Source: Thermococcus aggregans (GTDB lineage Archaea > Methanobacteriota_B > Thermococci > Thermococcales > Thermococcaceae). Taken from it: DNA of 64,000 nt. Positions 1,143-63,758 of the stretch are shown here, in pieces; positions within the stretch are counted from its first letter, which is position 1; each line of letters begins with the position of its first letter. Below the pieces are notes generated by a model. That model searched no databases and had not been told where the DNA came from. It worked only from the letters and a program-made list of their open reading frames with translations. The DNA lies in assembly GCF_024022995.1 (NCBI RefSeq), contig NZ_CP099582.1:930001-994000 (forward strand). The letters are read 5' to 3'. A program made the translations under genes and the position numbers.

Positions 1143-4100
1143 ATGGAAGTAGAATTGAAAGATAGAGTCAAGAACATCCTCGAGAACCTTAAACCAAAAA
1201 TGAGAGCTGATGATGCAATCAACATTTTTAGGGATATTTTCGTTGATGTATGGGGCTTCGATTACCATGATGAGCCAATTCCAGAAGGTGAGCTCAATGA
1301 ATTTGTTGCTCAAAACACGAGGATGATCAAGATAATCGCAAAGACCAATCCACCAGAGGGGGACAGCTTCTACATTGTTTATGCCCAAAGCAGAAGCGAT
1401 ACTGTAAAGTACAGGCAAAGAATGGTGAAAGATTTACTCAACTTTACCTATTCTCCCGGCCTGGAATTTGCAAATTTCTTAATTATTCTCGATTATGATG
1501 GATACTGGAAGCTCGTGGTGCCGATTTATAGAAGAGAGCTCGAAAATGCCAAGCTTAACATCTATGTAATTGATCCCGAAGAGAAGAAGTTCAGAACACT
1601 TGTCGAAAATTTAGCCGCTGTTGCTGAAGAATTGAAGAAGTTTAAGGAACATCCATCAGCAATCCAAATAAAAGCAATCATTGATGAGTACATGCAGGTT
1701 AAGCCTCTCACGGAAGAGTTTTTCAAGGAATACAAGGAGTACTACTACAAACTTAAGGGAGAGATAAAGAAGCTCTACGGGAAAAAGCTTGAAGAAGTTT
1801 ACATGGGAGAGTTACCAAAAGAGATATTCGTTGAAAGGGCCGCCAAGACATTTGCCCACACTTTCTTTAACAGGTTGATGTTTGTTTATTTCCTCCAGAA
1901 GAAGGGTTGGATTGTTGAAAAATCAGCTCTTAGAAAGGATCTCCAAGAAAAAGTTAACGTTAAGAACTTTGTGAGATGGCTTCATGACCAATGGGAAGAG
2001 CACGGGGGCGAATTATACAGGGATTACCTTAGGGTTCTGTTCCTCTACGCAATGAACACTCCGAGGGTTGGATACGAAAGAAGAAATGTGAAGGAAATTC
2101 AAAATATTCCCTCTCCAATTGTTAGGGACGTATTCACTTATGGAGTTCCTTACTTCAACGGCGGTCTTTTCAGCCATGTTAAGATAGAGGATATTGATTT
2201 AGATGAAATAATCACTTCTCTTCCAAATGTTTTAGTAAGAGAGCTCATATTCAACTTCTTCGAGGAGTACAACTTTACGGTAACGGAAGAGACACCTTAT
2301 GAGGTTGAGGTTGCAGTTGATCCAGCAATGCTTGGAAAGATTTACGAGTCTTTGATTGCCGAGGAAGAGAAAGCTTTGGAGGAAGAAGAGAGAAGGGTTT
2401 CGGGAATCTTTTACACGCCGAGAGCAGAAGTAGATTTCATGTGCAGGATGGCGATTTATGAATATTTAAGGAGAAATACCAAAGTCGACGATAAGCTCTT
2501 GAGAGAGTTTGTCTTTAAACCGGTTCATGAATGGGAGCCGAGATCGTTGCCATGGGAGATAGTTGAGGCACTTGAGGAGGTCAAGATAGTTGACCCTGCA
2601 GCTGGAAGCGGTGCTTTTCTGGTTGGCATGTATCATCTTTTAACGGAGCTCTATGAGAAAGCCAACGTTTCGGTAGATTACAAAAAGAAGCTTGAGATAA
2701 TCAGGGAAAACATCTATGGTGTTGACATCAAGGAATGGGCAATAAGGGTTGCTAAGCTCAGGCTCTGGTTAGCACTAATTGAGAAAGAGGAGAGAATTCC
2801 AAACGAGCCTATTCTGCCCAACTTAGAAGCTAAGTTAGTCGTCGGTGATTCCCTTGCTCCACCACACATAATTATTAAGGGGGAGGATGGAAAGAAAATT
2901 GTTCTTGATATTCCCCTCTCCAAATGGCGTGAAAGCTTAAAACAGAGAGCCGCAAGAAGCGGGCCAGCCTTCTGGATAGTTCAGTACAAAGAGCTTGCGA
3001 AGAAGTACTATGAGGGTAGGGGAGTCAGCTGGAAGGATTTAGAGGAAACTAAGTGGCATGTCCTTGAAGCTTTTGCGGAGGATGTTCTGGAAGAGCTAAA
3101 GGATTCAAGAGAAACTAAGGACAAGAAAGCGTTTAAACTTCTGTTATCAGCGATTAGAGAAGGCAGAATTGAGAAACCACCCTTCATCTGGGAGCTTGAC
3201 TTTCCAGAGGTAATGCTCTACAAGAAGGGTTTTGACATTGTCATAGCGAATCCTCCATATGTTAGGCAAGAGAAGATTTATCCAGAGTATTATGACTTGG
3301 CAGAGTTCGAGATGCTCAGCAAGAAGGAGCAGGAGAAACTAAAGAAGGAATACAAGGAAAAGATAATCAACCACATGGAAACAATAATCAAGGAGAAGTT
3401 TGAGCATGAGATGAAGTTAAATAAAAGGAGCGACCTCTATGCTTACTTCTTCATTCAGGGTGTTAACTTGCTTAATCCTAAAGGTGTGTTGGTTTTCATT
3501 ACATCAAACTCTTGGCTCGACGTTGATTACGGAACTCAGCTGCAGGAGTTCTTCTTGAGGTTTACCAATCTGAGGAGAATTATTGACTACACAACAAGGT
3601 CTTTCGAGCAGGCTGACGTTAATACGGTGATTACAGTTCTGACGAGAAAGCCTAAAGAGCTGTTTAATACTATTGGTGAAGAGTGCGTGAACTTCATCCT
3701 TCTAAAGAAAAACTTTGACGAGCTTAGTCTTGAGATAATAAACAAGATGCTCGACTGCTATGTTGGGAAAGTAAAGGAGGTTGAGGTTTTTGGCGGGAAA
3801 GTTTACAGCCACGAAGACGATGACGTTAGGGTTAGGAGCGTCAAAGCTGTAGATTTGGCTAAGATGGGCGGTCTCGAAATCGGCAAAAGGAGTATGCTTC
3901 TTGGTACATACAACATCTTCGGCGAATACAAGGGCATGAAATGGGGCGGAATTTTGATTAGGGCCCCACAAATATTCCATATTGCGTTAGAAAGAGGGAA
4001 AAATAAGATTATTCTTCTAGAGACAGCAGCAGATACAAAATTTGGAATTAAAACTGGAGCAAACGAATTTTTCTATTTAACTCCAATAAAGACTTCTGAG

Positions 4101-5108
4101 GACTTAAAGAGAGCTATTAATAATGCAGAAAAAGTTCTTAGGGATCTCAAAAAGAAGCCTAAAGAGAATGCAAAAGTAATAGAAGAGCTTAAGCACATAA
4201 TCGAGAATATCACAAAGGGAGTTTGTCCTGTTTGTGGAAAGAGCCATCAGGGAGTTGATGAGTATGTTTGGGTTTATAGTAGCTCTGGATGGATAGGATA
4301 TTTAGAAAAGGAATTTCTAAAACCAGTCATCACGAATACCCGCGAGATAAGTACATATTTAATTTCCCCTTCAACTCCAAGCAAGGTAATGTTTTATTGC
4401 CATTTAAGCAGAGAGGAATTAGAAAAAAGAGGGTTAGTACATGCAAAAGAATACATTAAATGGGGAGAACTTAGAGGATACAACACACGTAGAAGTGTTC
4501 AAGGTAGAAAATATTGGTGGGCATTACCAATTCAAGAAAAACAAGACTTCATTGTACTAAGATTTAGAGACCAAAGAAATTGGACACCAATCTTGCCAGA
4601 AGATGTTCAGATCTATGCTGGGGATGTTGTTTTTGTGGGTATTTACAAAGAAAAATACAAATCCAAAAAGAAAGTTTTGGATGCAGTACTTAACTCAACA
4701 TTACATATTCTTAGCACGGAAGTTGTTGGAAGAGCCAATCTTGGAGATGGACTATTAACAGTTTATGGGCCAGAAATTCAGGTTACTTTGGTTATTGATC
4801 CATACAAACTTTCTCCAATCACTGAGCAACAGCTAATTGATATCTTTACTCAAATGGCAAACCGAGAAGTAAAGAGCATCTTCGAGGAGCTCGGCCTTCC
4901 AAAGCCCAACCGCGACTTAAGCAACATCAATCCAGATGACGTTAGCTTGGATAAAGTCATGCCCGATAGGAGAGCTTTGGATAAAGTCATCTTTGAAGCG
5001 CTCGGCTTAACTGAGGAAGAGCAGCTGGAGGTTTACAAAGCTGTCGTGGAGCTGGTAAAGCAGAGACTTGCTAAAGCAAAGACGTTCTCAAATAAGAAGA
5101 AAAAGTAG
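1143..5108 (+). CDS. Large Eco57I/PglX-like DNA adenine methylase, possible R-M fusion
   Basis: This 1321-residue protein has a gamma-type N6-adenine methyltransferase core: SAM motif I 'DPAAGSGAFLVGM' near residues 483-495 and catalytic 'NPPY' near 703. An alpha-helical part with 'FLQKKGW' (about 255) is typical of type IIG and BREX PglX-like enzymes. Residues 800-1320 form the target-recognition half, with one 'CPVCG' near 1028. The first 170 residues are a separate mixed alpha/beta domain; type IIG enzymes carry a PD-(D/E)xK nuclease there, but I cannot identify a convincing catalytic triad. The start has GGAGGT upstream and a TATA element near 1101-1114. The next gene begins 12 bp downstream, so this heads an operon. 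It could be a bifunctional restriction-modification enzyme or only the self-marking methylase of a multi-gene system. Confidence 0.9.
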   Translation: MEVELKDRVKNILENLKPKMRADDAINIFRDIFVDVWGFDYHDEPIPEGELNEFVAQNTRMIKIIAKTNPPEGDSFYIVYAQSRSDTVKYRQRMVKDLLNFTYSPGLEFANFLIILDYDGYWKLVVPIYRRELENAKLNIYVIDPEEKKFRTLVENLAAVAEELKKFKEHPSAIQIKAIIDEYMQVKPLTEEFFKEYKEYYYKLKGEIKKLYGKKLEEVYMGELPKEIFVERAAKTFAHTFFNRLMFVYFLQKKGWIVEKSALRKDLQEKVNVKNFVRWLHDQWEEHGGELYRDYLRVLFLYAMNTPRVGYERRNVKEIQNIPSPIVRDVFTYGVPYFNGGLFSHVKIEDIDLDEIITSLPNVLVRELIFNFFEEYNFTVTEETPYEVEVAVDPAMLGKIYESLIAEEEKALEEEERRVSGIFYTPRAEVDFMCRMAIYEYLRRNTKVDDKLLREFVFKPVHEWEPRSLPWEIVEALEEVKIVDPAAGSGAFLVGMYHLLTELYEKANVSVDYKKKLEIIRENIYGVDIKEWAIRVAKLRLWLALIEKEERIPNEPILPNLEAKLVVGDSLAPPHIIIKGEDGKKIVLDIPLSKWRESLKQRAARSGPAFWIVQYKELAKKYYEGRGVSWKDLEETKWHVLEAFAEDVLEELKDSRETKDKKAFKLLLSAIREGRIEKPPFIWELDFPEVMLYKKGFDIVIANPPYVRQEKIYPEYYDLAEFEMLSKKEQEKLKKEYKEKIINHMETIIKEKFEHEMKLNKRSDLYAYFFIQGVNLLNPKGVLVFITSNSWLDVDYGTQLQEFFLRFTNLRRIIDYTTRSFEQADVNTVITVLTRKPKELFNTIGEECVNFILLKKNFDELSLEIINKMLDCYVGKVKEVEVFGGKVYSHEDDDVRVRSVKAVDLAKMGGLEIGKRSMLLGTYNIFGEYKGMKWGGILIRAPQIFHIALERGKNKIILLETAADTKFGIKTGANEFFYLTPIKTSEDLKRAINNAEKVLRDLKKKPKENAKVIEELKHIIENITKGVCPVCGKSHQGVDEYVWVYSSSGWIGYLEKEFLKPVITNTREISTYLISPSTPSKVMFYCHLSREELEKRGLVHAKEYIKWGELRGYNTRRSVQGRKYWWALPIQEKQDFIVLRFRDQRNWTPILPEDVQIYAGDVVFVGIYKEKYKSKKKVLDAVLNSTLHILSTEVVGRANLGDGLLTVYGPEIQVTLVIDPYKLSPITEQQLIDIFTQMANREVKSIFEELGLPKPNRDLSNINPDDVSLDKVMPDRRALDKVIFEALGLTEEEQLEVYKAVVELVKQRLAKAKTFSNKKKK

Positions 5109-5120
5109 GGGTGTTATCTT

Positions 5121-6425
5121 ATGGGGGAGCTCAAAGTAGATTTCAAGTTCCATAACGTTGGCCAAGGACTGTTTTACACTGGCCGACTAACTTATGGTAA
5201 GGCCTCCTTTAATTTTGTTTATGATTGTGGTTCTGAAAAAACTAATCTAGTAAATAAAGCCATTAACCGAGAGTTTTCGGGTAACAAGAAGGGCATTGAT
5301 CTGTTAATCATTTCTCATCTACACAAAGATCATGTTAGTGGTATTCCTCATCTACTGAAAATTACCCATGTAGACACTGTAATTCTTCCATATCTAACTC
5401 CGATTGAACGATTGCTTGTAGCACTTCAGACACCGGTTGCCCCAAGAGAGTTTTATGAATTCTTAGCTGACCCGGTGATGTTCCTTTTAGATAGTAGGAA
5501 GGTCAATAGAGTAATTTTAGTTGGCGGTGGAGAGCCAAGTGATAGAGAAAACTGGTTGCAAACTCATGATATGCCCTCTGACCTTCCACCAAATGGAGAG
5601 TTTATCATTGATCTCGAAAGATTACCTAACGATGAAATTTTAAGATCCGAGATAAAGAAACTAGAACCTAATGTAGTTGGAGACAGGAGAGTGCTAGTAA
5701 AGAATCATTCTGGAGTTCTGCCGGTACTTATTACTAAATCCCCCATCTGGATTTTTAGGTTTTTTAACTACAAAGTTAGATCCAATAAGATTTTTCAATT
5801 TGAAAACTGTGTAAAACGAATCTTGGGTGACATAACTCCTGAAACAATTAAGGACGCGATTCGGGATAGAAACATAAAATCCGAGCTGGAAGATTGCTAT
5901 AAATCCAATATACACTCAAAGTTAAACGAAACTTCATTACTGACGCTACATCTTCCGGTATTTAATCCTCGTAATAACATTCTCTGCTATAATTGTGGTT
6001 GTTTCAGAATAATAAATATAAATTTCGTAAATTTCAATATAAATTCCCACAATTTAATGAGTACCAATCAGCCAAGAGAGGCATTTTCACAATTTTTAAC
6101 AGGAGACATCAATTTAAATCGTAAACGTAAATATAAAGAAATTGCCAAACATTTTGGGTTTAAGAGTTATACTTCTAAGAAACCATTGATAACAGACACT
6201 ATGGTTACATTAATTCCCCATCATGGTGCCAAAGGATATTGGAACAATGCTATTTGTATGGATATTTCTAGTAGATTTTGGGTGGTTTCTGCAGGGATTA
6301 ACAACAAGTATGGCCATCCATCTTTAAAGGTTCTCTGGGACATCTGGCAGAACTGCCAGGATTCCTGTGTGGTGTGGGTCAATGAGGCAGTCTACTTTAG
6401 ACTCATGGGTATTCTTCAATTCTGA
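5121..6425 (+). CDS. ComEC-like MBL-fold hydrolase in defence operon
   Basis: This 434-residue protein has an MBL fold of the ComEC/Rec2 type without membrane segments. It opens with 'HNVGQG', as ComEC hydrolase domains do. The metal ligands are 'HLHKDH' (66-71), 'LTGDINL', 'IPHHG' (about 365-369) and a final 'YGHPSLKVL'. Between the first and second half lies an insertion of some 200 residues, with scattered cysteines including 'CYNCGC', that I do not recognise. Stand-alone ComEC-like MBL proteins occur in several anti-phage loci as candidate nucleases. It starts 12 bp after the methylase and ends 13 bp before the ATPase-TOPRIM gene, so these three are surely co-transcribed. Nuclease activity is inferred. 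Confidence 0.8.
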   Translation: MGELKVDFKFHNVGQGLFYTGRLTYGKASFNFVYDCGSEKTNLVNKAINREFSGNKKGIDLLIISHLHKDHVSGIPHLLKITHVDTVILPYLTPIERLLVALQTPVAPREFYEFLADPVMFLLDSRKVNRVILVGGGEPSDRENWLQTHDMPSDLPPNGEFIIDLERLPNDEILRSEIKKLEPNVVGDRRVLVKNHSGVLPVLITKSPIWIFRFFNYKVRSNKIFQFENCVKRILGDITPETIKDAIRDRNIKSELEDCYKSNIHSKLNETSLLTLHLPVFNPRNNILCYNCGCFRIININFVNFNINSHNLMSTNQPREAFSQFLTGDINLNRKRKYKEIAKHFGFKSYTSKKPLITDTMVTLIPHHGAKGYWNNAICMDISSRFWVVSAGINNKYGHPSLKVLWDIWQNCQDSCVVWVNEAVYFRLMGILQF

Positions 6426-6438
6426 GGAGGAACCAAAA

Positions 6439-8166
6439 ATGCAGGAGAACATCAATCAAAAGCTGGAATTAGTTGGGATTAGATTAGAAAACTACCGTTC
6501 TTATAAGAAATTTCCGGAAGATGAAGATTATCTAGAGCTTGGCAGGTTTACAACTCTTATCGGGAAAAATGACGTTGGGAAATCCAATCTCCTAAGGGCA
6601 ATTAAGGCTTTTCTTGAGAATGAAGATATATCTCCTGATGACATACATAAAGGGCACAACGCTAAATGCGAAATAACATTAGTTTTTAAAGTTTCTGAGG
6701 AGCTCAAGCCTAAATTGAAAGAAAAATTCGCTAATGTGTATGATGGTGGAAATGTTTTATTCATCTCAAAAATAGTTGAAGAGGATGAATTTAGTAATGG
6801 AAAATCTAAGTCCCGCGGAAAGTATTATATCAATTCAAAAAAGGTTGCTTACAACTCAATACAACCTTTTCTCCCAAAAGTACTCTTTATCCCTGCAGTA
6901 AAGAATGTTGAAGACGAACTCAAATTTGGAAGAGACACTCTAATCTCAAAGTTGCTCTTTCCAATAATTGAAAAAACCAGCCAAGAGAAAGCCCAAACAG
7001 ATAGTGTAGCTGACCTAAAAAGACGTCTAACAAATGCAATAAAACGAGAAACAATGAGTATCAGAAAGAAATTGAAAAAAGAGCTCTCTAAAATGTGGAG
7101 CGACGTAGAAGAAGTAACCATTGAGGTACCCGAATTAAAGCTAGAAAAGGCGTTTACACCAATAATAAAAGTCAAAGACAAGTACACAAAAAAAGAAACC
7201 CCCATAACATACAGAGGAAGTGGCATGCAAAGATATTTTATTCTTGCATTACTTGAGATTTACAGAGCACAAAAAATTGGTAAGGGGTATGTTTTACTGT
7301 TTGAAGAACCCGAGATTTACCTCCATGTTGGAGCTCAAAAGAAACTATGTGGCATCCTTCAAGAGTTCAGCAAAGAAGGTCAGGTTATCATATCTACTCA
7401 CTCAAGTGTCTTTGTAAATAGTGGAGAGCTTTCCACCTCATATCTTCTTGTCAAAGAAAATGGTGAAACTAAATTACGCAAATTCACTGGAAGCAAAGAA
7501 ATACTGGAAGAACTTGGGATGTCTCCAAGTGATATTTTCCTGACAGATGGGATAATCTTCGTTGAGGGACCCTCCGATAGAGAAATACTCCAGATATTCG
7601 CTAAAGCATTGTTTTCCAAGTGGGAAGAATACAACATAGCCATAATTCCCATAGGGGGATCTAATATAAACCATCAAGATCCAGAAATTCTCTCTAAAGT
7701 CAATCCAAATATTGCTGTTATTTTGGATTCTGATATCAAAAATGAGGGTTCTGATTTGTCTCCAAAGAAAAAAGAACTCAAACAGAAGTTCGAGGAAAAA
7801 AGTATTCCTGTATACTTCTGGGAGAAGAATGGGAAGATTGTTAGGGCTATAGAAAACTTATTCACGAGAAATGCCGTAAATTCTGCATTTCCTATATTGA
7901 AGGAGAATGAAATTGAACTTGAAAATGAAATAGGGCCTTATGATGATGTTCCTTTAATATTGGGTAAGAAATTTGCTGAAATTGCCGCTAGAAAGAATCC
8001 AAAATTGGATATCTCTAGTCTGAGTGATAAGGAATTTCGAGAATACTATGATAAGATAAAGCATGGGAGAAAGATTGCTCAAAAAATGGTGGAGTTGAAC
8101 GAGATCCCTACAGATGTAAAGGAGTTACTTAAGGATATCCTCAACAGATTTGGAATGAACAACTAA
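6439..8166 (+). CDS. OLD-like ATPase with TOPRIM nuclease domain
   Basis: This is a 575-residue OLD-family protein. The N-terminal ABC/SMC-type ATPase has Walker A 'GKNDVGKS' (42-49), a signature-like 'YRGSGMQRYF', Walker B 'LLFEEPE' (about 286-292) and an H-loop 'STHSS'. The C-terminal TOPRIM domain has 'FVEGPSDRE' (about 374-382), 'IGGSN' and 'LDSD' (about 428-431), the acidic residues that bind metal in OLD nucleases such as GajA. The frame is open back to 6367, but the ATG at 6439 has a GAGGAGG ribosome binding site ending 8 bases upstream and follows the previous stop by 13 bp, so I use it. Likely role: nucleotide-gated DNA nuclease of the defence operon. Confidence 0.88.
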   Translation: MQENINQKLELVGIRLENYRSYKKFPEDEDYLELGRFTTLIGKNDVGKSNLLRAIKAFLENEDISPDDIHKGHNAKCEITLVFKVSEELKPKLKEKFANVYDGGNVLFISKIVEEDEFSNGKSKSRGKYYINSKKVAYNSIQPFLPKVLFIPAVKNVEDELKFGRDTLISKLLFPIIEKTSQEKAQTDSVADLKRRLTNAIKRETMSIRKKLKKELSKMWSDVEEVTIEVPELKLEKAFTPIIKVKDKYTKKETPITYRGSGMQRYFILALLEIYRAQKIGKGYVLLFEEPEIYLHVGAQKKLCGILQEFSKEGQVIISTHSSVFVNSGELSTSYLLVKENGETKLRKFTGSKEILEELGMSPSDIFLTDGIIFVEGPSDREILQIFAKALFSKWEEYNIAIIPIGGSNINHQDPEILSKVNPNIAVILDSDIKNEGSDLSPKKKELKQKFEEKSIPVYFWEKNGKIVRAIENLFTRNAVNSAFPILKENEIELENEIGPYDDVPLILGKKFAEIAARKNPKLDISSLSDKEFREYYDKIKHGRKIAQKMVELNEIPTDVKELLKDILNRFGMNN

Positions 8167-53553: not shown

Positions 53554-54576
53554 ATGATAATAGTTACCGGAGATAAATACGACGAAATCCTAAAAGAGAA
53601 AAACTCTGAAAAAATCTTGTTTCCAGAGTACGGAAAGAACAAAGAAAAGCTGAAAGAATTTGTTAGCAATCTGAATGGCAATGAAATAATAGTAACTGCA
53701 AGCTTAGAGCTTATCGACCTCATACTGAACAGATTTCAAGGAGAGGGGCATTTCTTAATTTATTCGAACACAGGGGAAGAACTAACGTTCAAAGAAGCTT
53801 ATGAGCTAAGAAAATACCTTGATTTCGACCTGAGAGGAGCAGAAATTAACGAAACAGAAAAAGTTAGCGTTCTATTCTGCGAAGGAAAGACTGACTCAAA
53901 GTTTTTCAAGGCCAGTTATAAGAAGCTCTTTGGCTTTAAAGAGGCCAGAGAAGTTCCTCCTAACTTGACGTTAATTGAAAGGCTTTTCAAAAGGGACAAC
54001 TACGAGCTGATAAAAAATGATGGATACATCGCTATAATCCCCAGCGAAGGAAGCGCGGGAGTAATAAGGAATCTTGGAAATTTCTTGAGAGCGATGGAAG
54101 TTTTTGAATTTCAGGTTGAAAAGATAGGCGTGGCAATTGATATAGATGAAAGTGAAGAAGCCGTAATGGACTCCATAAAGGGCAAACTCTCATCTTTCAG
54201 TTATAACCAAACTGAAGAAGGCTTTAAAGTCGGAAAAGTTACAGTGATTCCCCTTTTAATTGGAACAAAAATAGACCTCGGCCCCTGTGTAGAGTGGCAA
54301 AAACCAACTATCGAAGACTTTATGCTGGCAATTCTTAAGGGAGATAGGACATTCAAAAAGCTTGAGAGAGCCATAAACATTCTCTGTATAGACCTAAAAC
54401 GAAAATTAAAGCCAAAAGAGGTTATTTATTTGGCTATGGCAGCCAAGAAGTTCTGGGGAAACCTTGAAGGCTTTTATGAGATGAGCATAATGAGAACTCC
54501 AAAGTGGAAAGTTGAGAAAGTCGTAAAAGAAAGCAAAATATATGAGAAAATGGAGGCTTTACTCCCATCTCGCTAG
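53554..54576 (+). CDS. TOPRIM-domain protein (DUF3226-like)
   Basis: This 340-residue protein has a TOPRIM-type domain in its middle: 'LFCEGKTDSKFFKASYKKL' (Glu), 'IPSEGSAGVIRNLGNFLRAM' (Gly), 'VAIDIDESEE' (DxD). It resembles DUF3226, OLD-like nucleases without the ATPase. The N-terminal 95 residues form a separate alpha/beta unit. The start codon directly follows the stop of the membrane-protein gene, so translation is coupled. A metal-dependent nuclease or phosphotransfer role is likely from the fold; the pairing with a membrane protein is reminiscent of two-gene defence modules but this is inference. Confidence 0.78.
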   Translation: MIIVTGDKYDEILKEKNSEKILFPEYGKNKEKLKEFVSNLNGNEIIVTASLELIDLILNRFQGEGHFLIYSNTGEELTFKEAYELRKYLDFDLRGAEINETEKVSVLFCEGKTDSKFFKASYKKLFGFKEAREVPPNLTLIERLFKRDNYELIKNDGYIAIIPSEGSAGVIRNLGNFLRAMEVFEFQVEKIGVAIDIDESEEAVMDSIKGKLSSFSYNQTEEGFKVGKVTVIPLLIGTKIDLGPCVEWQKPTIEDFMLAILKGDRTFKKLERAINILCIDLKRKLKPKEVIYLAMAAKKFWGNLEGFYEMSIMRTPKWKVEKVVKESKIYEKMEALLPSR

Positions 54577-55704
54577 AAGGTAATCCTTCTCCTTCAAGAA
54601 CGTCTCTGCTCTCTTCAGGACTAGCTTTTCAGCTTCTTCTGTTGTCATGTCTTTTGTTTTCTCCACGAAGTCTGCAGTTTTTGCAAAGTAGAGCGGCACT
54701 AAGGGTTCAGCGTTTTTGAGTATTCCTTTCTTATACGCTACAGCACTATCAAAGAGAACATGGCTCCAAAGGACGTCATCGAAGTCAAATGTCTTCAAGG
54801 CTTCTTTGACTTCTTCAAACGTCTCTTCTGAGAGTGCCTTCTCCAAAATCTTTTCATTCTCTTCAAAGAGCTTCCTTGCCTTCTCCTTTAGCAATTCCAA
54901 AGTGACCTTGACAGGTTCTGGTTCTCTAACATCCATCTCCCCGAAAACGGGAACAGGTTTTATCTCCCTTACATTCTTCCATTTGTCCTCATACTTGCCC
55001 ATCAGCATAAAGAGTGTTCCTACAACTTGGTTGAACATAGGTCCCAAGGAAGCCGCCGGATCCTTTGGATTATGGATTTTAACTCCAAGTGCTGTCTGGA
55101 TTACCTTGAAACCTTCTGCTATTGCGGTGGTTGTTAGGAATATGTCTACTCCGAATCTCGCTACATCGGTTTTCCAAATTTCTTCGTCTCTAAGATAGAC
55201 ATCTATAAGCTCTGCGCTGATCCCAAAGTCTCCTCCTATTGGCTGTCTAACGTTGTAGCCATAGAGAGATGCTGTCATCGGATAAGCAATGTTATTAGTT
55301 ATCGTCCCATCGTATTTGTGCCTCAGATACAGGGGGACAACGAAGTGATATCCTTCCTCAATTGGCTTGACGAATTTGTAGATCCACTCCGGAGTAATGC
55401 TTCTTAGGTCGCTATCAACAAACACTACTACATCTGCACCCTCATCTCTTGCTATCTCTAGGACTTCCTTCATAGCACTGCCCTTTCCTGGTATTGGCCA
55501 CCTGTAAACTACGCTCCTTACCTCAACTCCTTCGGGAACGGGAGTTTCCATGACGACTTTTCTTGTACCATCAGTGCTTCCACCGTCTGAGTTGATAATT
55601 ATTCCCCCTCCAAAATACTTCTTTAGTCCCTCTGCAGCTTGTCTAACGACGTATCCGATGGTATCGGCGTTGTTATAGCTTGGAATACACACGATAATTT
55701 TCAT
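54559..55704 (-). CDS. GT-A glycosyltransferase, glucosylglycerate synthase-like
   Basis: This 381-residue cytosolic family-2-like glycosyltransferase has 'VCIPSYNNADTIGYVV' for nucleotide binding, 'VVFVDSDLRSITPEW' with the DxD metal site, 'GGDFGISAELID' and 'HNPKDPAASLGPMFNQVV'. The C-terminal helical 130 residues resemble glucosyl/mannosyl-glycerate synthase type enzymes (GT81-like) more than polysaccharide synthases. It would join a sugar nucleotide to a small acceptor, for example to make a compatible solute. It is divergent from the Gfo/Idh genes, with a candidate operator between them. Its 3' end overlaps the TOPRIM gene by 18 bp. Confidence 0.8.
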   Translation of the reverse strand: MKIIVCIPSYNNADTIGYVVRQAAEGLKKYFGGGIIINSDGGSTDGTRKVVMETPVPEGVEVRSVVYRWPIPGKGSAMKEVLEIARDEGADVVVFVDSDLRSITPEWIYKFVKPIEEGYHFVVPLYLRHKYDGTITNNIAYPMTASLYGYNVRQPIGGDFGISAELIDVYLRDEEIWKTDVARFGVDIFLTTTAIAEGFKVIQTALGVKIHNPKDPAASLGPMFNQVVGTLFMLMGKYEDKWKNVREIKPVPVFGEMDVREPEPVKVTLELLKEKARKLFEENEKILEKALSEETFEEVKEALKTFDFDDVLWSHVLFDSAVAYKKGILKNAEPLVPLYFAKTADFVEKTKDMTTEEAEKLVLKRAETFLKEKDYLLARWE

Positions 55705-55722
55705 TGCTCATCACCAAAATAC

Positions 55723-55739
55723 AACCATTCATAGTGGTT
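55723..55739. promoter_or_regulatory. Candidate TrmB-type operator, copy 1
   Basis: AACCAT-N5-GTGGTT is an inverted repeat with one mismatch, within a longer stretch shared with 57845-57861 (TACAACCA and AGTGGTTTA flanks identical). For the leftward glycosyltransferase it lies between a TATA-like TTTTAAACC (about 55742 centre) and the start codon, the place for repression. For the rightward oxidoreductase it lies just upstream of the TATA ACTTATATA (about 55752-55760). The 6-N5-6 geometry equals that of the TATCAC-N5-GTGATA box bound by TrmBL1/Tgr. Confidence 0.6.
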
Positions 55740-55794
55740 TAAAATTAAGAAAACTTATATACCTTTTGGTGTGTAGTAATCATGAGGGATCCCG

Positions 55795-56820
55795 ATGGGG
55801 AAGCTAAAAGTTGGAGTAATAGGATGTGGAAATATATTCAACCTTGCCCACAAAAATGCCCTCAAAAACCTAAAGGAAGTAAAAGTCGTCGCTTGCATGG
55901 ATATAAAAGCAAAAAAGGCAAAAGAGGTCGCAAAAGAGTTCAATGCAAAGGCATATACAGATTTAGATGAATTTTTGGACTTGGATTTAGATGTTGTTGA
56001 GATTCTAACACCCACGTACACTCACGCCGAGCTGGCTATAAAGGCCTTGAAAAGCGGTAAACATGTAATTGTGGAAAAACCCATAGCTCTTACGACTGAA
56101 GAGGCCCAAAAGATGATAAAAACAGCAGAAAAAGAAGGATTGTGGCTTTTGGTTGGCCATACAAGAAGATTTGACAAGCGGTGGGTGCAGATAAAGGAAG
56201 TCATAAAAAAGAGAAATATACTCCCAGTGCAGATAAGGAAAGCAGAAGTCCAAAGACTGCCATTTCCGGAAACTGCGTGGTACTGGAAGCCCAACAAAGG
56301 AGGCGGCGTTGCAATAGATTTAGGCGTTCATGTTACGGACTTTCTCAGGTGGTACTTTGAAAGTGAGCCGGTAAAAATCCTTGGAATAGGGAAAGCCATA
56401 AGAAAGGAGGCAAAAGTAAATGGAACGTACGACCACTTCTTAATGATGATACAGTTTAAGGGAGGAAAAACCGGCTTGGCAGAGGTAAGCTGGGCGTATT
56501 CCTATCCAGCACGTTATGGGGTCTTTTACCACCACTTGGACATTCTGGGGAAGAATGGAAGGATACGATACACCCCCTTAGATACACCAGTGGTTGGAGT
56601 AGTAAAGAGCCACTTCGAAATGCCGCGCTTCTCGCCGTTGCTTTCAGCATTCCCAGAAGCATTTGAAACAGAGCTAAGACATTTCTTCAGAGTGATCATG
56701 GGCAAAGAAGAACCAAGAATAACCGCAAAAGATGCACTAATAGCACTCCAAATGGCAGAGATGGCAATAGAGTCTGCAAAAAGAGGAGAACCCTTGGAGT
56801 TTAAGGGGGTGGTAGAATGA
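55795..56820 (+). CDS. Gfo/Idh/MocA family oxidoreductase, first copy
   Basis: This 341-residue NAD(P)-dependent oxidoreductase has the Rossmann start 'VGVIGCGNIFNLAHKNAL', the catalytic Lys in 'IVEKPIALTTEEAQ' and the C-terminal beta-sheet domain with 'GGGVAIDLGVHVTDFLRW' (Asp and His of the active site). Members oxidise or reduce sugars, inositols or sugar-nucleotides. The ATG at 55795 has GAGGGAT. It overlaps the second Gfo/Idh gene by 4 bp (ATGA). The context suggests handling of the sugar imported by the ABC system downstream. Confidence 0.9.
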   Translation: MGKLKVGVIGCGNIFNLAHKNALKNLKEVKVVACMDIKAKKAKEVAKEFNAKAYTDLDEFLDLDLDVVEILTPTYTHAELAIKALKSGKHVIVEKPIALTTEEAQKMIKTAEKEGLWLLVGHTRRFDKRWVQIKEVIKKRNILPVQIRKAEVQRLPFPETAWYWKPNKGGGVAIDLGVHVTDFLRWYFESEPVKILGIGKAIRKEAKVNGTYDHFLMMIQFKGGKTGLAEVSWAYSYPARYGVFYHHLDILGKNGRIRYTPLDTPVVGVVKSHFEMPRFSPLLSAFPEAFETELRHFFRVIMGKEEPRITAKDALIALQMAEMAIESAKRGEPLEFKGVVE

Positions 56821-57818
56821 TAAATGTTGGAATAATCAGCTATGCCCATCCACATGCGTTAAGATACGGAACCACTTTTGCCTCTAACCCCAAAGCAAAG
56901 CTTTACGCAATCTCGGGGGACGGTGCAAACGCCGATGTTGCAAGAGCTGAAGCCCAAAAGCTTAATGCAAAATTCTACAAGAGCTACGAAGATCTTCTCA
57001 AAGATAAGAAAATAGATGCAGTTTACATAGCTATTGAAACCTACAGGCACAAAGAAGTCGCCATAAGAGCTGCTGAGGAGGGGAAGCACATACTCCTGGA
57101 AAAGCCAATTGCCCTAACCCTTGAAGATGCCGACGAGATTATCAAAGCGGCTAAAAAAGCCGGTGTTAAGCTTATGGTACCATTCAATCCAAGGTTCACT
57201 ATTCCTCTCAAGAAGGCGAAAGCCATGATAGAAGCTGGGGAGATAGGAGAGCTGGAGTATATATATTCAATCTCAGAGTACGTAAAGCCCCCCATATTCC
57301 TTGAGGGCTTAGATACGAGCTGGTTCTTAGACGTTAAAAAAGCGGGCGGCGGAGGATTCATGGATACTGCACCCCATGGAGTGGATTCTTTACTTTGGCT
57401 TACAAACAGCGAGCCGAAGAGCGTTTACGCAGATATAGGCTCAAAAATCTATGGGTTCCCTGTAGATGATATAGGTACTGCAGTGCTAGAGTTCAAAAAC
57501 GGCGTTGTAGCAGTTCTTAATGCTGGATGGGGCAATCCAAAGGGATACGCATATGGGCTGGAAATCAAATATTATATCCTCGGAAAAGAGGGATTCCTTG
57601 ATATCAGAACTGCATATCCCGACTTTACTGTATATCAAGACAAGGCAGAAAAAATATACTGGGAGAGAGCTGATGTCAACGGCATTGTTGACTCATTCTT
57701 GGAGTCAATAATAGAGGATAAAGAGCCTCCGATAACTGGAGAGATTGCCAAAAAGAACCTAGAAATAATTCTAGCTGCTTACGAGTCTTCAAGAACTGGA
57801 AAAACTATTAAACTTTGA
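56817..57818 (+). CDS. Gfo/Idh/MocA family oxidoreductase, second copy
   Basis: This 333-residue paralogue of the preceding enzyme begins 'NVGIISYAHPHALRY', an unusual Rossmann loop in which the GxGxxG glycines are replaced, followed by the standard 'LLEKPIALTLEDADEIIKAA' and 'GGGGFMDTAPHGVDSLLWL'. The altered nucleotide loop suggests a changed cofactor mode or loss of dehydrogenase activity. The two could act in series or as a heteromer. Coupled by a 4-bp overlap to the first copy; 109 bp separate it from the binding-protein gene, which has its own promoter. Confidence 0.88.
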   Translation: MINVGIISYAHPHALRYGTTFASNPKAKLYAISGDGANADVARAEAQKLNAKFYKSYEDLLKDKKIDAVYIAIETYRHKEVAIRAAEEGKHILLEKPIALTLEDADEIIKAAKKAGVKLMVPFNPRFTIPLKKAKAMIEAGEIGELEYIYSISEYVKPPIFLEGLDTSWFLDVKKAGGGGFMDTAPHGVDSLLWLTNSEPKSVYADIGSKIYGFPVDDIGTAVLEFKNGVVAVLNAGWGNPKGYAYGLEIKYYILGKEGFLDIRTAYPDFTVYQDKAEKIYWERADVNGIVDSFLESIIEDKEPPITGEIAKKNLEIILAAYESSRTGKTIKL

Positions 57819-57844
57819 GTTTCCATTTTTACTCTTTTAAATAC

Positions 57845-57861
57845 AACCACAAGAAGTGGTT
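57845..57861. promoter_or_regulatory. Candidate TrmB-type operator, copy 2
   Basis: AACCAC-AAGAA-GTGGTT is a perfect 6-N5-6 inverted repeat. It lies just before the promoter of the ABC importer. TATA candidates are TTTATATC (57860-57867), touching the operator, and TTTATATAT (57871-57879). In the Tgr/TrmBL1 model, a site upstream of BRE/TATA gives activation and one overlapping or downstream gives repression; both readings are open here. Best candidate binding protein: the TrmB-like product of 62050-63081. Confidence 0.65.
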
Positions 57862-57927
57862 TATATCACAAGATTTATATATTTTGAGTTAGCAAAATTA
57901 GGATGAGCAATTCAGAGGTGATAGGCC

Positions 57928-59232
57928 ATGAACCGAAAAGTAAGATTAGCGGGAGTTTTAGTTCTGGTTCTTTTAGGAGCGATAGTAAGTGGATGCATTG
58001 GTGGTGAAGAAACAACAAGCCCAACCACCACAGAACAAGTAACAATTAGCTGGCTTTCAACACAGCTAAACCCACCTGAGGAGAGAGCTTTTGTACAAGA
58101 GCAGTTACTTAAGGAATTTAAAGATCAATATGGAATTGATGTAAACTTTGTACCTATCAGCTATGCCGATTTGGCCACGAGGCTTGAGGCTGAGGAAAAA
58201 ACCGGTAAGGTAACTATCGATTTGATAGCCGATCTCCACGGTGGATTGGACTTCTTTGCCTCCAAAGGATGGCTTGAAGATTTAAGCGGAAAAACCCTTG
58301 AAGGAAGAACTTTCATAAGCACCTTTGAAAAATACGCAACAATAGACGGAAAGAAAATCTACATTCCATGGATGAGTGCTACATATGTAATGGTAGTCAA
58401 CAAGAAAGCCTTTGACTACCTTCCAGCTGGACTTACACAAGAGGATGTTATGAAAGGAACCGAGAAGTGGACATACGACGCCCTTCTTGAGTGGGCCAAG
58501 AATTTGAAAGAAGCTACCGGCCAACCACAACTTGGCTTCCCGGCTGGGCCAAAAGGTCTCTTGCACAGATTCCTCCACGGTTACATCTACCCAAGCTTCA
58601 CAGGCTACCAAGCTAAGAACTTCGACAGCCCAGAGGCAGTTGAGATGTGGAAGTACCTCAGAGAGCTCTGGCAATACGTAAACCCAGCAAGCACAACATG
58701 GGATGCTATGGGTGAACCACTCCTAAGAGGAGAAGTTATGATCGCTTGGGACCACACCGCAAGAATAAAGAATGCAATAGAGACAAACCCAGATCAGTTC
58801 GTGGTCGTTCCAGTGCCAAGAGGGCCAAAGGGAAGAGGATTTATTCTGGTAGTAGCTGGATTGGCAATTCCAAAGAACGCTCCTCACCCAGAGGAAGCCT
58901 GGAAACTAATTGACTACCTTACAAAGCCAGAGACACAAGTAAAAATCCTCGAAAAAGTTGGATTCTTCCCAACTGTACAGGAAGCGACGGGAGCAATCCC
59001 AAGTGGACCTCTTAAGATATTAGCCGAAGGTGTTGCGGCTCAATCAGCAACGCCCGATGCAGTTGTAGCAATGATTCCAAACCTTGGTGAGAAGGGAGGA
59101 CAATTCACAGACGCTTACAGAACTGCATTCCAAAGAATTGTACTTAAAGGGGAAGATCCAGAAACTGTGGTCAAAGAACTCGGCCCACAAGTAAAGCAAC
59201 TCTTCCAAGAGATGGGACAAGAAATTCCATGA
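57928..59232 (+). CDS. ABC sugar-binding lipoprotein
   Basis: This 434-residue extracellular solute-binding protein of family 1 (MalE-like) has a lipoprotein signal: 'VLVLVLLGAIVSGCIGG' with the lipobox Cys, followed by a Thr/Ser-rich linker ('EETTSPTTTEQ') that would be glycosylated at the cell surface. The mature protein has 'LSTQLNPPEERAFVQEQLLK', 'ADLHGGLDFFASKGWLEDL' and a C-terminal 'AWKLIDYLTKPETQVKILEK', standard for carbohydrate-binding proteins. GAGGTGATAG is a strong ribosome binding site. It is the first gene of a five-gene operon (binding protein, two permeases, ATPase, regulator). Ligand unknown. Confidence 0.92.
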   Translation: MNRKVRLAGVLVLVLLGAIVSGCIGGEETTSPTTTEQVTISWLSTQLNPPEERAFVQEQLLKEFKDQYGIDVNFVPISYADLATRLEAEEKTGKVTIDLIADLHGGLDFFASKGWLEDLSGKTLEGRTFISTFEKYATIDGKKIYIPWMSATYVMVVNKKAFDYLPAGLTQEDVMKGTEKWTYDALLEWAKNLKEATGQPQLGFPAGPKGLLHRFLHGYIYPSFTGYQAKNFDSPEAVEMWKYLRELWQYVNPASTTWDAMGEPLLRGEVMIAWDHTARIKNAIETNPDQFVVVPVPRGPKGRGFILVVAGLAIPKNAPHPEEAWKLIDYLTKPETQVKILEKVGFFPTVQEATGAIPSGPLKILAEGVAAQSATPDAVVAMIPNLGEKGGQFTDAYRTAFQRIVLKGEDPETVVKELGPQVKQLFQEMGQEIP

Positions 59233-59242
59233 GGGAGGTGCC

Positions 59243-60097
59243 ATGAGGGTAAAATCCTCCTACCTTCCTTATTTTTTAATTTTGCCTGCATTTGCGTACC
59301 TACTGTTTTTTGTAGGATATCCACTTGTTCAAGCCCTTTATATTGCGTTTACTCAAAACGGACAATTTTCCCTTGCAACTGTTAGAAAGACCTTTGCTGA
59401 CCCATATTTTTGGGAAGCTTTGAAATATACCCTTGCCCTTGCGGGAGTCATTGTCCCAACTCAAGTTGGGTTGGCTATCATATTAGCCCTCGCTGTTAAT
59501 AGGGCGTTTAAAGGAAAAGACCTTACTATTTATGCTCTCACAATCCCCCTAACTATAAGTGATGTTGCTGCCGGTTTGATATGGTACTCCATGCTTTCCC
59601 CAAGTGGATTTTTGAATAAGCTTCTTCTGAATATTGGGCTTATTCACCAGCCTATTTACTTCTTTGGGTATCAATACCGCCACATGGAGTTTCTGGCTAT
59701 TGTTTTAGCCGAGCTTTGGAGAGCAACCTCAATAGTCTTTGTTATAATCCTCGCTGGACTTCAGATGATAAGCAACGAATATCTAGAGGCAGCAGAAGTG
59801 TTTGGAGCAGACTACTGGACTAGGTTAAGGAAGATAGTGATTCCCCTCTTAAAGCCAAGCATCCAGAGTGCACTAATAATCAGAACACTCTTTGCAATGC
59901 AGATATTCGGTATAGTCTGGATACTTGCCGGAAGAGACATTCCAATCCTCGCTGGAGAAGGGTTCTACAGGCTAACCGAGCTAAAAGAGTACGATGTGGC
60001 CTCAATTTACGCCTTGGTAATAGCGGGGCTTTCAATACTGCTCGGAGCGCTCTATATTAAGTTCATGAAGGCTGAATACCTGGAGGTGAGAAGATGA
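59243..60097 (+). CDS. ABC sugar permease, MalF-type
   Basis: This 284-residue permease has six helices. It starts 'YLPYFLILPAFAYLLFFVGY' as MalF/UgpA proteins do. The EAA loop is 'EYLEAAEVFGADYWTRLRKI' followed by 'VIPLLKPS'. It is 10 bp after the binding-protein gene with GGGAGGTGCC upstream, and overlaps the second permease by 4 bp. It forms the membrane channel with the next gene. Confidence 0.92.
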   Translation: MRVKSSYLPYFLILPAFAYLLFFVGYPLVQALYIAFTQNGQFSLATVRKTFADPYFWEALKYTLALAGVIVPTQVGLAIILALAVNRAFKGKDLTIYALTIPLTISDVAAGLIWYSMLSPSGFLNKLLLNIGLIHQPIYFFGYQYRHMEFLAIVLAELWRATSIVFVIILAGLQMISNEYLEAAEVFGADYWTRLRKIVIPLLKPSIQSALIIRTLFAMQIFGIVWILAGRDIPILAGEGFYRLTELKEYDVASIYALVIAGLSILLGALYIKFMKAEYLEVRR

Positions 60098-60927
60098 ACG
60101 ACGAAACAAAGTTCATGCTAAAAAGGCTAGCCTTTTACACGTTTATTTTTACCGTGATTGCTTGGATAATAATCCCAATAATAATCTCAACGCTCTATGG
60201 ATTTGCCCTTCCAAAGGACTATTATGACCCAAAGAAAGTCATCCCAACAAGCTTTACAACACAGTACGTTAAGACCCTCCTCTTTACGCTCGGAGCTTTA
60301 GATGGAATTAAGAACAGTATTATTGTTGCGTTGATTACAATAGTCATAAGTTTTACCCTCGGAATTCCAGCAGGATACGCAGTCGCAAAGTTCATCTTCC
60401 CCGGAAAAGACACCATAAAGCTTTCGATAGTGGCCCTTAGGATGTTTCCAATACCCGTAATGGCAATTCCTCTTGTAGTCCTTTACATAAGGCTCAACCT
60501 TATCGATACATTACTCGGAGTTGCCCTCGCCCATACTGCTATGGCACTTCCATTTGTAGTTTTAATAACCTCAAGCATCTTTGCAGGGGTTTCCACTGAG
60601 CTCGAGGAAGCCGGTATGGTGTTTGGACTCACAAGATTAGGATCGTTCTTCAGAATTACCCTCCCCCTAGCACTACCAGGTTTAGCGGCAGCTGCAATGT
60701 TCACTTTCGTCATGTCGTGGAACGAAGTTTTCGTAGCTTCAATTCTAACCCTGTCCCATAGAACCCTTCCGGCTCAAATTTTATCAATAATGGCAGGAGC
60801 AAGCGGAGGAGCGGCGCCGGATTATTACAAATTCGCGGCAGCATTTATTATGATATTGCCGGCCATAACGTTCATATTCTTCGCTAGGAAGTATCTGGTA
60901 ACAATGTGGGGTATAACACTAAAATGA
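60094..60927 (+). CDS. ABC sugar permease, MalG-type
   Basis: This 277-residue permease has six helices and the EAA loop 'ELEEAGMVFGLTRLGSFFRI' followed by 'TLPLALPG', the MalG/UgpE pattern. The periplasmic side and C-terminus ('RKYLVTMWGITLK') are normal in length. It is coupled by a 4-bp overlap to the MalF-type gene and precedes the ATPase by 10 bp. Confidence 0.92.
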   Translation: MNDETKFMLKRLAFYTFIFTVIAWIIIPIIISTLYGFALPKDYYDPKKVIPTSFTTQYVKTLLFTLGALDGIKNSIIVALITIVISFTLGIPAGYAVAKFIFPGKDTIKLSIVALRMFPIPVMAIPLVVLYIRLNLIDTLLGVALAHTAMALPFVVLITSSIFAGVSTELEEAGMVFGLTRLGSFFRITLPLALPGLAAAAMFTFVMSWNEVFVASILTLSHRTLPAQILSIMAGASGGAAPDYYKFAAAFIMILPAITFIFFARKYLVTMWGITLK

Positions 60928-60937
60928 GGTGTAAAAA

Positions 60938-62049
60938 ATGGTGGAAGTTAGACTTGAGAACCTCAAGAAGTATTTTGATAATGGAAGAGTAAAAGCTGTT
61001 GATGGAGTAAACCTAACCATAAAGGACGGAGAATTCCTTGTACTCCTTGGACCTAGTGGTTGTGGAAAGACTACAACTCTCAGAATGATAGCGGGTTTGG
61101 AAACGCCAACAAGCGGAAGGATATGGTTTGGAGACAAAGATGTAACTTATCTTCCCCCTAAGGACAGAAACATCTCGATGGTTTTCCAGAGCTATGCAGT
61201 TTGGCCCCACATGACAGTTTACGATAACATAGCCTTCCCGCTGAAGATTAAAAAGTATCCAAAAGAGGAGATAGACAAAAAGGTCAAATGGGCTGCAGAA
61301 CTGCTTCAAATAGGAGAGCTCCTCGACAGGTATCCTGCTCAGCTCAGTGGTGGTCAGAGGCAGAGAGTCGCCGTTGCAAGAGCGATAGTTGTTGAGCCGA
61401 ACGTTTTGCTTATGGACGAGCCGCTTTCAAATCTTGATGCCAAGCTTAGGGTTGCAATGAGGGCAGAGATTAAAAAGCTCCAAACAAAGTTAAAGGTCAC
61501 TACAATCTACGTTACCCACGACCAAGTTGAAGCTATGACAATGGGTGACAGAATAGCAGTAATGAACCGAGGAAAGCTCCTCCAAGTTGGACCACCAACG
61601 GAAGTTTATCTGAAGCCCAACTCAATCTTCGTGGCAACGTTCATAGGGGCTCCTGAGATGAACTTACTTGAGGTGACTGTTAAAGAAACGGGAGACTCAA
61701 TTGTCTTAGAAGGGGAGGGGTTTGAAATCCCGCTGCCAAGTGATTTCAAAGAGCTTTTAGGGAAGTACATAGACAAAACAGTTATTTTTGGTATAAGACC
61801 AGAGCACATGACCATAGAAGGTGTATCATCTCTGGAGCATGTAAAAAGAAGTGCTATACTAGAAGGAATAGTAGATTTCATTGAAGCTTTAGGTACAGAT
61901 ACAATTGTACATGCCAATATAGGAAGTGGAAACATTATAAAAGTAAAGCTCCCTGGTCATATACCCCTTGAAGTGGGGAGTAAAGTTAAAATAGTAGTCG
62001 ACTTGGACAATATTCATGTATTCGATAAGAACACTGAAAAAGCCATAAT

Positions 62050-62053
<4 letters not shown>
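60938..62053 (+). CDS. ABC sugar transporter ATPase, MalK-type
   Basis: This 371-residue ATPase powers the importer. Walker A 'GPSGCGKTTTLR' (about 39-50), Q-loop 'VFQSYAVWPHM', signature 'LSGGQRQRVAVARAI', Walker B 'VLLMDEPLSNLD', H-loop 'YVTHDQVEAMT'. The C-terminal TOBE/MalK regulatory domain (about 240-371) is present. Its stop overlaps the regulator's start by 4 bp. The TOBE domain may contact the regulator or sense the uptake state, as in other MalK proteins. Confidence 0.93.

Positions 62054-63758
<1,705 letters not shown>

Follow-up and report, generated by a model that had tools for sequence, protein, structure and literature searches.

Paired palindromes in Thermococcus aggregans are candidate operators of TrmBL5, a TrmB-family regulator from the same gene cluster

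The window, i.e., the whole 64-kb stretch of Thermococcus aggregans DNA that was analysed, carries a cluster of genes organised around two promoter regions. A glycosyltransferase of the GT2 fold (GT, 54559..55704, minus strand), distantly similar to glucosyl-3-phosphoglycerate synthase and mannosylglycerate synthase, is divergent from two plus-strand Gfo/Idh/MocA oxidoreductase genes, OX1 (55795..56820) and OX2 (56817..57818), which overlap by 4 nt and belong to the same operon. Further along the plus strand lie the genes of an ABC importer, composed of an extracellular solute-binding lipoprotein (SBP, 57928..59232), two permeases (59243..60097 and 60094..60927) and an ATPase of the MalK/UgpC/GlcV type (60938..62053). 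The last gene of the importer operon, the start of which overlaps the ATPase stop, encodes a TrmB-family regulator identified below as TrmBL5 (62050..63081, plus strand), whose conserved start is possibly the second ATG, at 62065. A DUF3226 protein gene (53554-54576) lies convergent with GT; across the loci examined, the two are neighbours in the window's genus alone.

Each of the two promoter regions contains an inverted repeat of the form AACCAY-N5-GTGGTT. Operator 1 (AACCATTCATAGTGGTT, 55723..55739, unstranded) lies between GT and OX1 in a conserved block, TACAACCA...AGTGGTTTA, at 55720-55741, and is found in 32/32 aligned orthologous intergenics. Operator 2 (AACCACAAGAAGTGGTT, 57845..57861, also unstranded) lies in the promoter of the importer-regulator operon, in a conserved block at 57842-57863 (34/34). 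Operator 2 is a perfect 6-N5-6 palindrome, and a single half-site position deviates in operator 1 (AACCAT). The two blocks read TACAACCATTCATAGTGGTTTA and TACAACCACAAGAAGTGGTTTA, respectively, with outer bases common to both sites. An earlier note on this DNA had described both repeats and their shared flanks, which the sequence bears out, and had suggested scanning the genome for the pattern. The pattern is not common outside promoters: a search of the single contig of 1,889,107 bases finds the exact form at two places only, operators 1 and 2. Allowing one mismatch adds 12 genome places, every one overlapping ORFs, so that this search for extra regulon members in the genome yields none; the whole-genome total of 22 strand-hits barely exceeds the 15 that the reversed pattern gives as a control. 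With two mismatches, the 64-kb window holds 6 matches for 6.8 expected, which is not above chance. The window alone is thus unremarkable, and significance is drawn from exactness, promoter position and conservation.

Both operators have a fixed place relative to predicted core promoter elements. A TATA box, TTATATA (55755..55761, unstranded), is probably common to GT on the minus strand and OX1 on the plus strand, start sites being predicted; it is flanked by BRE-like elements, AAGAAAAC upstream and CCTTTTGG (minus-strand CCAAAAGG) downstream. The importer operon has its own TATA box, TTTATATA (57874..57881, plus strand), preceded by a less consensus BRE (CACAAGA). The operators end about 11-16 nt upstream of the TATA box with conserved spacing; measured between centres, operator and TATA box are 26-28 bp apart at GT|OX1, compared with 24-26 bp at SBP. 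The symmetric BRE-TATA-BRE arrangement expected of a bidirectional promoter with a shared TATA box is predicted, mirror-symmetric, in 32/32 orthologous GT|OX1 intergenics, and a downstream-side BRE is found at SBP in 12/33. The BRE consensus RAAA is present in 2/33 SBP promoters vs 32/32 GT|OX1 intergenics. In P. furiosus, one TATA box has been found to serve both strands, with starts 49 bp apart (PMC6640164). By inference, the same spacing here would have OX1 transcription start near 55782 and that of GT near 55733, a position within operator 1.

Conservation was followed in 94 Thermococcaceae genomes, in which a TrmBL5 ortholog was defined as a close relative at E ≤ 1e-60. Such an ortholog is found in 46/94 genomes, and the order GT | OX1-OX2-SBP-permeases-ATPase-regulator is retained in nearly all assembled cases. 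The operator is present in the same two promoters of orthologous clusters in five genera, in every assembled orthologous promoter. Operator 1 is TACAACCAT-N5-GTGGTT in 32/32 aligned intergenics, and the left half of operator 2 reads AACCAC (17), AACTAC (11) or AACAAC (6) among 34; the right half GTGGTT is retained in 32/32 cases at site 1 and 33/34 at site 2. The exact pattern ACAACHAYNNNNAGTGGTT occurs in 44/94 genomes, typically in exactly two copies. Beyond Thermococcaceae, a single contig scan by a method that finds close relatives only returned Thermococcus-type MAG records only. Some clusters have been remodelled around the sites. At loci L047 (genome G011) and L088 (G033), the ATPase, regulator and operators are retained but SBP and permeases share only about 60-68% identity with those of the window, as though the core of the importer had been replaced while its regulator stayed. 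At L041 (G003), about 0.9 kb of extra DNA lies in the GT|OX1 intergenic (2271-3243) and an insert of about 2 kb lies within OX2 (4822-6796); both operators remain, and the extra DNA is possibly made up of mobile elements.

Inverted repeats might also act as RNA hairpins, i.e., as a terminator, an attenuator or a 5′ leader element, and site 2 indeed follows a T-rich stretch 3′ of the OX2 stop codon. Yet each site precedes a conserved TATA box, so that neither the OX1 nor the importer transcript is predicted to include it, and the left half varies toward unpairing, AACAAC facing an invariant GTGGTT in six genomes. Moreover, the flanks are conserved without being self-complementary, and the presence of the repeat follows that of the regulator gene. 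TATA position, unpairing variants and co-occurrence with the regulator led us to reject the hairpin reading, to which we give practically no weight.

The regulator belongs to the TrmB family, with an N-terminal winged HTH (PF01978, 80.7 bits vs a cut-off of 25.6) and a C-terminal effector domain (PF11495, 151 bits vs 22.2). None of the named TrmB subfamily models (TrmB, TrmBL1, TrmBL2 and haloarchaeal TrmB) scores it above the respective curated cut-off. The TrmBL1/Tgr equivalog model of NCBIfam, NF047390, gives it 131.9 bits vs a cut-off of 650, while the genome's own TrmBL1 scores 673; its best-scoring NCBIfam model is that of haloarchaeal TrmB, at 194.7 bits for a cut-off of 500. Separate TrmB, TrmBL1 and TrmBL2 proteins are encoded in this genome, each passing its own model. 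Domains, models and paralogs thus support the earlier suggestion of a distinct TrmB-like regulator at the end of the operon. Its name can be traced through T. barophilus, where TERMP_01835 was named TrmBL5 in 2023, with a role called unclear, and was considered a possible regulator of a pressure-responsive gene cluster (PMC10667668). Both RT-qPCR primers for TERMP_01835 from that study match exactly within an ORF of genome G086 that shares 59% identity with the window regulator and stands in the same gene order, which identifies the latter as TrmBL5. Our literature search found no paper joining TrmBL5 with an operator, a regulon or a mode of action.

The regulator's sequence matches that of structurally solved TrmB. 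The DNA-contact residues Y50/D51 and sugar-contact residues G320/E326 of TrmB (PMC4158304) correspond in TrmBL5 to Y54/D55 and G326/E332, all invariant in 42/42 orthologs. In the recognition helix, a Q50-P51 pair is invariant in the 42 TrmBL5 sequences, and the same two positions, which directly precede the helix's conserved arginine, are H-T in TrmBL1 and Y-N in TrmB. This difference is a correlate, not proof, of specificity for AACCAC, TATCAC and TACT, respectively. The 42 sequences were grouped by FastTree with a node support of 0.0, and the grouping is therefore based on subfamily models and on identity levels, which are at least 54% within TrmBL5 and at most 31% to paralogs.

The co-occurrence of box and regulator links the two across genomes: the box is present in 43/46 genomes with TrmBL5 vs 1/48 without it (Fisher p = 7e-22, with genomes treated as independent though related). 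Matches to the flank-extended exact pattern are confined to TrmBL5 genomes in the 94-genome sample, and its reversed control gives 0. The three TrmBL5 genomes without an exact box are G007, where the regulator is truncated and the cluster deleted, G073, where the contig ends within the importer genes, and G069, where the ATPase 3′ end alone remains next to the regulator. The deletion in G007 (L048, 10278-12122) extends from within GT across the oxidoreductase and importer genes and spares the ATPase 3′ end; neither operator is left, and the regulator is without its HTH. The box found without a regulator, in G061, was treated as a chance match, its contig holding no cluster genes bar a weak 26% ATPase match.

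Several relatives provide natural controls. All GT|OX1 intergenics of TrmBL5 genomes are boxed (33 and a further 3), and 0/9 are boxed without TrmBL5 (p about 2e-9 for 34 vs 9, a value that overstates independence given the kinship of the genomes). Eleven relatives keep the oxidoreductases, nine of them with GT too, but have neither TrmBL5 nor box: eight genomes of genus g3 and G037 retain the divergent GT|OX1 pair, with best matches at 5-8 of 12 positions, and G081 and G064, the latter just 81% complete, retain OX1-OX2 without GT. Conversely, operator 1 is still found at OX1 in G079, which has lost GT, and is retained with TrmBL5 in G005, which has lost the importer. Box presence in these genomes is better tracked by the regulator than by any target gene, although the co-occurrence is partly confounded, since TrmBL5 shares an operon with the importer genes and the two are separated in G005 only. 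At the genus g3 loci (L120-L126), the boxless GT|OX1 intergenics are mostly longer (108-218 bp), and most have in common a CCGTCACTTTTTTA-like element, possibly the site of another regulator.

One could also suppose that the boxes are variant sites of the Thermococcales glycolytic motif (TGM, TATCAC-N5-GTGATA), read by the global sugar regulator TrmBL1/Tgr. The geometry is indeed the same 6-N5-6, the CAC-N5-GTG core is shared with 4/6 half-site positions identical, the ChIP-derived TrmBL1 motif permits C at position 3 (PMC4706686), and a TrmBL1 gene is present in this genome. However, TrmBL1 is found in 83/94 genomes, including seven that are boxless despite carrying the GT|OX1 promoter (G017, G019, G021, G023, G024 and G037) or that of OX1-OX2 (G081); TrmBL1 therefore does not maintain the box. 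The flank-extended box occurs only alongside TrmBL5, and TGM and AACCAY boxes are separate populations in this genome. As the boxless TrmBL1 genomes have kept a target promoter, TrmBL1 is disfavoured as the reader, and we regard this reading as very unlikely. AACCAC-N5-GTGGTT does not match TGM, with which it has only CAC-N5-GTG and one more position in common. The earlier note had equated the geometry with that of the TrmBL1/Tgr box, which stands, and had called the operator new and its half-site different, which holds in part, the core being common to both; AACCAC is a diverged form of the TGM half-site TATCAC.

Altogether, these comparisons point to the two palindromes as almost certainly dyad-symmetric operators of TrmBL5, the putative sugar regulator encoded beside them. 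That the operator is read by TrmBL5 is very strongly favoured, and the proposal of the earlier note that the repeats are read by the regulator of the same operon gains comparative support from the 43/46 vs 1/48 distribution and the natural controls.

The regulon appears larger in many relatives. Many genomes of genera g4 and g2 have a third operator beside GT, in the divergent promoter between a PfkB kinase and a fucose-isomerase-like protein with an MGH1-like-domain glycosidase, where the layout of GT|OX1 recurs. The same operator is found there at seven loci (L088 11728-11746, L085 3512-3530, L070, L071, L078, L081 and L086), and four carry a symmetric variant, AACAAC-TTTTG-GTTGTT (L073, L076, L079 and L084). 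The operator is absent from L083 despite TrmBL5, and is degenerate or absent at two loci without TrmBL5, with 8/12 and 6/12 positions matching. Half-site position 4 is C, T or A in symmetric pairs (AACCAC/GTGGTT, AACTAC/GTAGTT and AACAAC/GTTGTT), and such variants argue for a predicted dyad recognition of AACNAC. The target list first proposed, i.e., GT, the oxidoreductases and the importer, is therefore right for its two promoters and is extended in many relatives by the third. Together with GT and the oxidoreductases, the MGH1-like neighbour hints, as speculation, at glycosylglycerate-like or other modified sugars.

Taken as a whole, TrmBL5 operators with position-dependent local regulation appear highly probable as the best explanation of the locus. 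A TrmBL5 dimer would bind the palindrome via its winged HTH and would respond to a sugar in its C-terminal effector domain. That the effector is a sugar or a sugar-like compound seems probable; expression of TERMP_01835 in T. barophilus is little changed by maltose (PMC10667668), so that maltose is probably not the effector. Bound TrmBL5 would activate the promoters downstream of it, i.e., that of the importer-TrmBL5 operon, creating an autoregulatory loop, and probably that of OX1-OX2. On operator 1, it would cover the predicted GT start (about 55733) and repress GT. The reasoning by analogy leans slightly toward activation of the importer operon and leaves repression of GT an even call. In vitro, TrmBL1 activates when bound upstream of BRE/TATA and represses when bound downstream, and both actions have been proposed by its authors for one divergent region, PF1538|PF1539 (PMC4706686). 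One of three upstream TGM templates had no effect in vitro (PMC4706686), and a position upstream of TATA is thus not proof of activation. TFB-RF1 activates promoters with BREs such as that of SBP by recruiting TFB (PMC5937170). Combined with the less consensus SBP BRE, the TrmBL1 position rule makes activation of the importer and oxidoreductases and repression of GT the preferred model.

The main rival is general repression, in which TrmBL5 would simply repress every gene until a sugar released it, its upstream binding getting in the way of TFB at the neighbouring BRE. Repression in the absence of substrate is common among sugar-uptake operons, the operator edge lies about 11-16 nt from TATA, adjoining the BRE, and TrmB itself represses the TM operon from a site that overlaps BRE and TATA (PMC4706686). 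Against this, the conserved gap keeps the BRE region clear of the operator, TrmBL1, whose box has the closest geometry, is an activator when bound upstream (PMC4706686), and the less consensus importer BRE (RAAA in 2/33 vs 32/32) is expected of an activator-dependent promoter, as in the TFB-RF1 precedent (PMC5937170). General repression is a serious but minority possibility. Within the preferred model of activation and repression by position, operator 1 and the TATA box common to GT and OX1 might together form a promoter-direction switch, TrmBL5 at 55723-55739 covering the GT start while recruiting TFB toward the oxidoreductases. We put this forward tentatively, as a suggestion with the balance somewhat against it; if true, a single binding event would turn a bidirectional archaeal core promoter away from a gene for glycoside synthesis and toward genes that handle sugars.

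Among known systems, TrmBL1/Tgr with TGM resembles TrmBL5 in its TrmB family membership, effector domain, 6-N5-6 palindrome and CAC-N5-GTG core, in having sites up- or downstream of TATA, and in its sugar-transport and sugar-metabolism targets. TrmBL5 differs from it in protein sequence (about 30% identity), half-site (AACCAC) and recognition helix (Q-P vs H-T), and its regulon is local (2-3 promoters at one locus) whereas that of TrmBL1/Tgr is global. TrmB of T. litoralis and P. furiosus (TACT-N3-AGTA), of which a separate ortholog exists in this genome, shares with TrmBL5 the family, the sugar-binding and DNA-contact residues and usually a position beside its own ABC importer, but has another operator and a site that overlaps BRE/TATA at the TM operon. 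Haloarchaeal TrmB (VNG1451C, TACT-N7-8-GAGTA) differs in both its operator and its global regulon. The protein family, geometry and regulator name were already known; what appears new is the proposed operator code and compact local regulon of TrmBL5, together with the third operator in relatives and the mirror-symmetric BRE-TATA-BRE at GT|OX1.

About half of Thermococcaceae have TrmBL5, to which a candidate operator code can now be assigned, along with a defined regulon confined to 2-3 promoters of a single locus. Published motif scans limited to TACT and TGM sites would miss its targets. The TrmB family may thus hold another specificity with a recognition-helix correlate (Q-P, H-T and Y-N), i.e., a DNA code testable by residue swaps.
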